Source: Alphaproteobacteria bacterium (GTDB lineage Bacteria > Pseudomonadota > Alphaproteobacteria > Rickettsiales > Deianiraeaceae). Taken from it: 40,122 nt of DNA. A model generated the notes under the pieces. It worked only from the letters and a program-made list of their open reading frames with translations, was not told the DNA's origin and did not search any database. Positions 36,683 to 39,313 of this stretch are shown one piece after another. Made by a program: the position numbers and the translations under genes. Location: NCBI GenBank assembly GCA_030830305.1, contig JAURNI010000034.1, forward strand, positions 1-40,122. Direction: 5' to 3'. Numbering within the stretch: position 1 is the stretch's first letter; each line of letters starts with the position of its first letter.

Positions 36683-39313
36683 CTATTTTAATTGACCAAT
36701 GTATATTGAGATATCATACGGAAGATTGGGGATAATGTCTTTCCATTGTTCATAAAACACACTTAACCTTCCTTCGGTTTTGTACCTTCTGAATGCTTCA
36801 ACGGCTTCAAGATGTTTTTGAAATTTCAATTCTTTTTCAGTATCCAGTTGCTGTGTTTTATTAAGTAGTTGTAGAAAATCATTAAGCGAGCCTTGCTTAG
36901 ATACACCTCCATTCTTAAAAAGAATTGAATTCACTTCTTCACAAATAAACGGGCAAAATGGTGAATACAGAATGGTTATTCCATGTAAAATGATACAAAG
37001 AGTCATTATTGCAGATTTTTGCTCTTCATTAATTTTTTGTATTTTGTCATTCAAAAGTTCTACATCTTTATAAATAAAAGCCTTTATTCCGTAATAACGA
37101 ATTTTGATGAATTCAAGGTAGTTATCGCAAAATATACTCCAGAAGAATGAATCAAGGCATTTTCTTGCGTGAAAATAATCCATTTTTTCCATGAATATTT
37201 TATATTCCGTGATAGTTTTTTTGAATTCATTGGTGACCCAGAGATCAACCTCATTCACTACCTCACCTATGTTAAGTTTTTGTTGGATTTCATTTTGAAG
37301 AGCAAATTTTGTTGTATTCCAAAGTTTTGTTGTAAATTTTTTCCCAATGTCGAGACGGTCTTCACTATATGCCGAATCTGTTCCAAGCGGAGTGTTTGAG
37401 CACCAAAAACGCACAACATCTGCACCATGCTTTTGAACAAGTGCAAGAGGTTCTACAACATTTCCTTTTGATTTACTCATTTTAGATTTATCACTTGCAA
37501 GGCACCAACCTGAAAGACCAACGGTTTTCCATGGTAAGTGTTGTTGTTTTTTTAAGATATTATGTTCCACGTGGAACATTTTTCCATCGATGTTTGCAAT
37601 TTCTATACCGTTACCATTTGTATTACTTGCATGTAAAACGGATTTTAATAAAGTGTAGAATGTCCATGTTCTAATAATTTCATGGGCTTGTGGGCGTAAA
37701 TTAAACGGAAGATTTTCATATTTAAGTGAATTCTTTGCAATTTGCGGAGTTAACGACGATGTGAACCATGTATCAAAAACATAATGAAATTTTAAATCAA
37801 TTTTTTTGTTTTTAAGTTCGGTGTTTTCTCCGCTATAAATAGCACTATATCCGTTTGCAGTTTTTTGAATATTTGAAAGTTCGGTTGTTTTGTAAATTCC
37901 ATTTGGGAAAATAAATTCATAAATTTTTTCACCAACTTCATAAGTGTAGTATGGAATTTCAACTCCAAAAAAACGATTTCTTGAAATACACCAGTCTTGA
38001 TTTAAGCCTTCAATCCATTTTTCAAGGCGAATTTTCATGTATGATGGCGTAAATTCAAGTTCTTGTGTAGCTTGAAGTAGAAATTTTTTAAACGGTATGG
38101 TTTTTACATACATTTGCCTTTGGTTGATTATTTCAACCGGTTTGCCTGAACGCTCCCCACATTTAACAGAATGTATAATTTTGTTTTGTTTTGAAATTAA
38201 GCCACTCTTTTGCAATTCTTCAACAAGTTTTGTTCGGGCATTAACTACCCTTAAAAACCTTCCAGTATCTTCGTTTTTGTAAAAATCGTGGTGAATTTCA
38301 CCATTTTCTTGTATTAGCACTTTCGGTGTAAGCTTATGTTTTTTAATCCATTCAACATCGGTCCAGTCTCCATACGAACAACACATTACAACACCTGTTC
38401 CTTTATCTTGTTTTGCGGTATCATCTGCAAGAAACGGAACTTCTTCATTAAAAAATGGAGTTTTTAGTTTTGTAATTCCTTTAAATCTTTTATCATCTGG
38501 GTGGTGAAGTACTGCAACGCATGAAACCAATAATTCAGGGCGGGTTGTCATCACTTCAACAACTTTTCCTGTTTTTGGGCATGTGAATGGAATAAAATAT
38601 TCAGTGCTTTCAAGTTCTTTGTCCTCCAAATCTGCCTGAGCAAGTGCCGTTTTGTCTTCTGTATCCCAATACACGGGAGCGTCTTTAAGATAAACTAAAT
38701 CTTTGTGGTGTAAATCTGCAAAAGATTGCAACACAATTTCCTCTGTCTTTTTTGAAATTGTTTGATACTTCAAAGACCAATCGTATGAAATTCCAATTCC
38801 ACGGAATAGCTCTTCAAATTTTTGTTCAACATCTTCAACAACCTTAAAACATTCTTCTTCAAATTCTTGCTTTGTGCAGTTAATTCCAACTTTTTTACCG
38901 GTTTGTTTTTCAACAAGGCGTTCCGTTGGAAGGCCGTTGTCATCAAAGCCAACGGGGTAAAAAACATTTTTGCCAGCAATACGGTTATAACGAGCAATAA
39001 TATCCGCTTGAACATATGAAAACACATGCCCCATGTGAAGGTAGCCTGAAACCGTTGGGGGCGGGGTATCAATTGAAAATAATTCACTTTCTGCTGTGTC
39101 TTTTTCCACAAATTTTTGACTGTGCTCCTCGTGCACGTTTAGGTGCAGTCCGGTGCTCGCCTGCACATTCGCAGAAAAATCCTTTGCACAAAGTGAATTA
39201 TGGTTTTCTGTCGTGTCTTTTTCCACAAATTTATAAACCTCCAATTCGTCCCATTTTTTATGAATTTCCTTTTCTCTTTTATCAAATTCAAAAAACTTTG
39301 TTAATTGTTGCAT
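36683..39313 (-). CDS. valS: Valine--tRNA ligase (archaeal/Rickettsiales-like type) with extra internal segments
   Basis: SIDTPPPTVSGYLHMGHVFSYVQADIIARYNRI (HIGH), DDNGLPTERLVEK, DKSKMSKSKGNVVEP (KMSKS); start likely MQQLTKFFEF (39313), the ORF track gives 39325. Confidence 0.96.
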   Translation of the reverse strand: MQQLTKFFEFDKREKEIHKKWDELEVYKFVEKDTTENHNSLCAKDFSANVQASTGLHLNVHEEHSQKFVEKDTAESELFSIDTPPPTVSGYLHMGHVFSYVQADIIARYNRIAGKNVFYPVGFDDNGLPTERLVEKQTGKKVGINCTKQEFEEECFKVVEDVEQKFEELFRGIGISYDWSLKYQTISKKTEEIVLQSFADLHHKDLVYLKDAPVYWDTEDKTALAQADLEDKELESTEYFIPFTCPKTGKVVEVMTTRPELLVSCVAVLHHPDDKRFKGITKLKTPFFNEEVPFLADDTAKQDKGTGVVMCCSYGDWTDVEWIKKHKLTPKVLIQENGEIHHDFYKNEDTGRFLRVVNARTKLVEELQKSGLISKQNKIIHSVKCGERSGKPVEIINQRQMYVKTIPFKKFLLQATQELEFTPSYMKIRLEKWIEGLNQDWCISRNRFFGVEIPYYTYEVGEKIYEFIFPNGIYKTTELSNIQKTANGYSAIYSGENTELKNKKIDLKFHYVFDTWFTSSLTPQIAKNSLKYENLPFNLRPQAHEIIRTWTFYTLLKSVLHASNTNGNGIEIANIDGKMFHVEHNILKKQQHLPWKTVGLSGWCLASDKSKMSKSKGNVVEPLALVQKHGADVVRFWCSNTPLGTDSAYSEDRLDIGKKFTTKLWNTTKFALQNEIQQKLNIGEVVNEVDLWVTNEFKKTITEYKIFMEKMDYFHARKCLDSFFWSIFCDNYLEFIKIRYYGIKAFIYKDVELLNDKIQKINEEQKSAIMTLCIILHGITILYSPFCPFICEEVNSILFKNGGVSKQGSLNDFLQLLNKTQQLDTEKELKFQKHLEAVEAFRRYKTEGRLSVFYEQWKDIIPNLPYDISIYIGQLK
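37563..37578. promoter_or_regulatory. parS (ParB-binding) site, perfect 16-bp palindrome
   Basis: TGTTCCACGTGGAACA (within the 18-bp palindrome ATGTTCCACGTGGAACAT, 37562-37579); identical to the classic chromosomal parS sequence. Confidence 0.85.
39079..39232 (-). repeat. In-frame palindromic, GC-rich repeat-element-like insertion in valS
   Basis: Imperfect 27-bp direct repeats TTCTGCTGTGTCTTTTTCCACAAATTT (about 39089-39115) and TTCTGTCGTGTCTTTTTCCACAAATTT (about 39206-39232), 117 bp apart; 12-bp inverted repeat ATAATTCACTTT (39079-39090)/AAAGTGAATTAT (39190-39201); GC-rich core GTGCTCCTCGTGCACGTTTAGGTGCAGTCCGGTGCTCGCCTGCAC. Confidence 0.7.

Follow-up and report, generated by a model that had tools for sequence, protein, structure and literature searches.

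An exact parS palindrome within valS of a Deianiraeaceae genome, in a cluster of parS-like sites near a candidate replication origin

In Pseudomonas aeruginosa PAO1 nine of the ten parS sites (parS1-parS10) lie in coding sequences, and the perfect-palindrome parS are bound best (PMC4368675). In Caulobacter crescentus, too, the parS sites form a cluster about 8 kb from the origin and fall within the coding sequences of genes that are essential or costly; new parS are best tolerated there close to existing sites (PMC5815017). In Rickettsiales and Wolbachia oriC lies in the hemE / COG1806 / COG1253 region, and the COG1806 gene flanks the origin in both Caulobacter and R. prowazekii (PMC1914354). 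Judged by these precedents, the parS type described below is itself well known and its placement within a coding sequence is ordinary; the surprise at such a placement implied by the original prediction, which had been made from the letters of this DNA, was unwarranted, this being usual in P. aeruginosa and Caulobacter.

The window, by which we mean the whole 40,122-nucleotide stretch analyzed, is the entire contig C13 of an assembly of a Rickettsiales bacterium that comprises 1,181,065 bases in 107 contigs. The features that concern us are as follows:

24544-25398, plus strand: COG1806/DUF299 (Kinase-PPPase) gene (PF03618), some 8 kb away from the candidate oriC
32255-33247, minus strand: mltG (TIGR00247, above cut-off)
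32284-32299, unstranded: third parS-like site, TGTTACACGTGGAACT, two mismatches, at the mltG 3' end
33248-33467, unstranded: candidate oriC, the space between the divergent mltG and tsaD (16% GC), where DnaA-box-like motifs cluster at 33241-33425
33468-34502, plus strand: tsaD (TIGR03723, above cut-off)
34151-34166, unstranded: second parS, TGTTCTACATGGAACA, two mismatches, within tsaD
36683-39325, minus strand: valS, archaeal-type valine--tRNA ligase (NF009687, above cut-off), host of the exact parS
37562-37579, unstranded: exact parS (37563-37578) in an 18-bp palindrome, read in frame as MFHVEH of valS

The 16-mer at 37563-37578 is identical to parS2 and parS3 of P. aeruginosa, and the site in tsaD to its parS5 (PMC4368675), although the two organisms belong to different bacterial classes and a full-length SMC was not found in this order. 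With Caulobacter the genome shares a clustering of sites within coding sequences, but the half-site here is GTTCCAC as against the conserved GTGAAA half there, and the sites of this genome flank the candidate origin on both sides. The candidate origin resembles the oriC of Rickettsiales and Wolbachia in being short, intergenic and AT-rich and in containing DnaA boxes, with the COG1806 gene 8 kb off, whereas its flanking genes are mltG and tsaD and hemE is found on contig C63. We propose, at a probability of roughly 0.8, that the valS palindrome is a working chromosomal parS in a cluster of at least five, that the origin most probably lies between mltG and tsaD, and that valS acquired its site recently, by substitution.

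At 18 bp, ATGTTCCACGTGGAACAT is longer than any other perfect palindrome in the window, and the 16-mer within it matches the parS consensus with no mismatches. In frame on the minus strand it reads ATG TTC CAC GTG GAA CAT, encoding residues 583-588 of an 880-residue protein that scores 762 bits against NF009687. Direct reading of the sequence and of this open reading frame bears out the perfect palindrome, the exact parS and the in-frame MFHVEH as originally described. The accompanying claim that a chance match is very unlikely stood up to shuffling. At three or fewer mismatches the window holds three parS matches against 0.15 expected, a count reached by none of 100 shuffles of the window. 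Likewise, when 135.6 kb of the genome's own DNA was dinucleotide-shuffled 200 times, no exact parS arose, of which the genome has one, and sites with at most two mismatches averaged 0.035 per shuffle (about 0.3 per genome) against the five found.

These five sites comprise all the parS matches at two or fewer mismatches in the entire assembly, and are confined to two of its 107 contigs. Three are those in the window (32284 in mltG, 34151 in tsaD and 37563 in valS), of which the valS site is the sole exact parS in the 1.18-Mb assembly and the other two were absent from the original prediction. The remaining two are on contig C101, at 3257 inside dnaG and at 7472 in an intergenic position just upstream of tsf. 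C13 and C101 are probably chromosomal neighbors, because orthologs of genes from both occur together between 12 and 38 kb on a single contig of a congener (G004). A uniform spread of sites, which would have spoken against the original prediction, is not what the genome-wide search returned.

The parA and parB genes, whose presence the original prediction had proposed checking, were recovered as adjacent open reading frames on contig C32. The ParB protein scores above the TIGR00180 cut-off (E = 2.9e-54), is the sole ParB-family match of the genome by that model and matches solved ParB/Spo0J structures with a best E-value of 1.4e-50. Alignment to Caulobacter ParB revealed that R173 and G201, the residues for the parS and not the Noc site, are kept, as are G170, K171, S172 and N178 (Caulobacter numbering). 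Two contact residues conserved in both ParB and Noc are altered, namely Q162 to histidine and R204 to lysine; across the family, the position of R204 is lysine in all six aligned ParB proteins and that of Q162 histidine in four of the six. From this complement of sites and proteins we infer ParB binding and a segregation function in this genome. None of 97 genomes searched in the order scored above the cut-off for full-length SMC (model TIGR02168), as against 10 of 14 controls, in a survey that used this single model with weak-match scoring and at most six candidates per genome. ParB and parS are nevertheless present in this family, and ParB-parS may work here without SMC.

Comparison with relatives revealed which of these sites are shared. 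Most genomes of the family have parS with at most one mismatch, restricted to one contig each, or to two in G002 and G003. In the four relatives of the genus, parS-like sites occur in tsaD, in mltG or in both. That of tsaD occupies the same codons (VPRGT) in G003 and G004 and is shifted along by about 20 codons in G001; G002 and G003 have parS in the middle of mltG. The site at the 3' end of mltG is common to the present genome (G000) and G001, the latter carrying TGTTCTACGTAGAACT at the orthologous position, where it overlaps the stop codon. No parS was found in the aligned valS segment of G001, G002 or G004, and the valS of G003 is cut short before the site. Across 80 further valS loci, the matches with two or fewer mismatches came down to the site in tsaD of G001 and, in locus L280, a weak match to an alternative consensus. 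The ValS protein segment at parS is poorly conserved among the relatives (GKMFHVEHN here, for example GVEFKIKKN there), and the protein therefore does not explain the DNA palindrome. The flanks align with G001 and G004 with no indel at the site, and G002 shows a one-residue difference about a dozen positions upstream of it. By parsimony, the valS parS would have been gained through base substitutions, in a stretch of the protein that varies. In G004 and G002, moreover, valS is located on contigs with no parS match, which argues that parS tracks chromosomal position and not the gene. The nearest relatives by ValS are MAGs titled Rickettsiales. Three public MAGs titled 'Rickettsia typhi' (L221, L225 and L226) have ValS proteins that are 43-69% identical to that of this lineage and match its relatives; these titles look misassigned.

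The mltG-tsaD gap is the densest stretch of the window in canonical DnaA boxes (TTATCCACA, at most two mismatches), with eight per 225 bp against a mean of 1.03 and a next best of five elsewhere. Using a matrix for the family-type box (TTATSAACA and variants) that was picked after viewing the sequence, we counted nine in the gap; shuffling this DNA gave 0.84 +/- 0.86, and none of 1000 shuffles reached nine. The TATCAACA and TTATSAACA blocks are invariant in the gap across the four available species, this one and three congeners; the canonical box alone was not significant in the gap of G004. An exact CtrA site (TTAA-N7-TTAA) was not found in the gap, G000, G001 and G004 having one-mismatch variants only, and a search of the window with Rfam returned two tRNAs only. 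We also considered an origin adjacent to hemE and rejected it, as hemE overlaps miaB and prs on C63 with no gap on either side, and that contig has no parS. Similarly, the combination TATCAACA-N12-TTATSAACA was tried as a cross-genus mark of the origin and abandoned: it is exact at the gap in G000 and G001, occurs once more in G021 and is otherwise limited to scattered one-mismatch instances.

A replication origin in this gap is likely, but parS could be genuine and the origin elsewhere, with the cluster tens of kb off and the boxes belonging to, for instance, a DnaA-regulated divergent promoter. The cumulative-skew minima point this way: that of G006, a single 1.2-Mb contig, is at 979.9 kb, about 55 kb from parS, and that of G012 at 130.7 kb, 43-45 kb from parS, while in G004 the third-position skew does not change sign at the candidate origin. 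Set against this are the rank of the gap as the densest box cluster of the window and its conservation in three congeners, with the top cluster also recovered at G004:C3 and G001:C79. Moreover, the box cluster that ranks first within a 20-kb stretch is 0.2-1.9 kb away from parS in G005, G012 and G013, and the strand-corrected third-position GC skew switches sign at the gap in both G000 and G001. Raw GC skew was too weak to place an origin in the window or in G004:C3. On balance we consider a distant origin rather unlikely. The original prediction of an origin about 4 kb away is accordingly plausible and supported, though short of proof: 4096 bases separate the end of the gap from the valS parS, and the box cluster, its conservation and the skew switch in G000 and G001 agree with it, whereas the skew of G004, G006 and G012 is not in full agreement.

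Readings that deny the palindrome its role as a resident parS fare much worse. It might merely be spelt by the codons of MFHVEH and be functionless, as its in-frame position within a coding sequence and its lack of conservation in the valS of congeners would allow; with practically no exact matches expected, two more parS-like sites within 5.3 kb that are conserved in relatives, parAB present and a poorly conserved protein segment, we regard such a coincidence as very improbable. Recognition by another palindrome-binding protein, such as a Noc-like factor or a CACGTG regulator, draws on the score of 217 bits that the Noc model gives to this ParB, a value below its cut-off of 315 bits. By TIGR00180 the genome has a single ParB-family match, with the parS-type R173 and G201, and the near-matches cluster instead of occurring genome-wide, which makes this the least credible of the alternatives. 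A mobile palindromic element might also have delivered the site to valS, either a Rickettsia palindromic element or one of the type seen in G021, another Rickettsiales MAG in which in-frame parS elements exist. A Rickettsia palindromic element is an inserted segment that extends its host gene, and we rejected it on the gap-free alignment of valS with G001 and G004; the flanks of the site are themselves valS, and delivery by any such element is highly improbable.

If the palindrome is indeed a chromosomal parS, ParB encoded on contig C32 would load at the exact valS site, with weaker loading at the two-mismatch sites in mltG and tsaD, and would then spread onto the flanking DNA. ParA would move the resulting ParB-DNA complex, so that segregation begins with the origin region. 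The putative origin, for which the 220-bp gap between mltG and tsaD is the most probable place, would be 0.7-4.1 kb away from these sites, its activity in this genome being likewise inferred. The site in valS would be a recent acquisition through base substitutions where the protein is variable, with no insertion involved.

The valS site locates the centromere, and probably also the origin, of an uncultured Rickettsiales lineage. Furthermore, valS, tsaD and mltG in the five congeners offer a small natural series for the gain and shift of parS in coding DNA. Somewhat against the odds, we also entertain a broader picture in which the Rickettsiales centromere is largely contained inside coding sequences and moves with the genes near the origin, by substitutions as in valS, tsaD and mltG or by in-frame duplication of a parS-bearing element as in G021, all this in an order for which a full-length SMC was not detected. 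If this is true, new parS would arise in whichever gene happens to be near the origin, rewriting its protein; and if the order lacks SMC, it would present a case of ParB-parS without the usual second client.

Several further observations were made along the way. In G021, which belongs to the same order, the 5656-bp contig C175 (locus L301) holds 29 parS with at most two mismatches, 21 of them exact. All but one, at base 1, are inside two open reading frames, coding for a ComEC-like competence protein and a UvrD-type helicase, and they occupy all three reading frames. The two genes share a 249-nt segment with several parS, whose copies are 87% identical and read in the same phase, and the match to the UvrD N-terminal domain is stretched, with about 260 profile positions covering 475 residues. 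A plasmid match was looked for with this contig and none was found. The arrangement looks like the in-frame spread of a parS-bearing element, on what is a small MAG contig. Another locus, L304 (G009:C37), contains three identical one-mismatch parS (TGTTCCACGTAGAACA) at 538, 1561 and 2676, about 1.1 kb apart. Within the window, 39315-40121 on the minus strand codes for a fusion protein, a CcrM-like N6/N4 adenine methylase with an HNH endonuclease domain, cut by the contig end; the ortholog of this methylase-HNH protein in G006 is encoded 1.3 kb from the parS of that genome. Finally, the stretch from about 20900 to 24500 has a GC content of 22-29% and encodes Lys/Asn-rich proteins, and its ortholog in G004 carries a parS of its own (C3:21827) in a methyltransferase gene.
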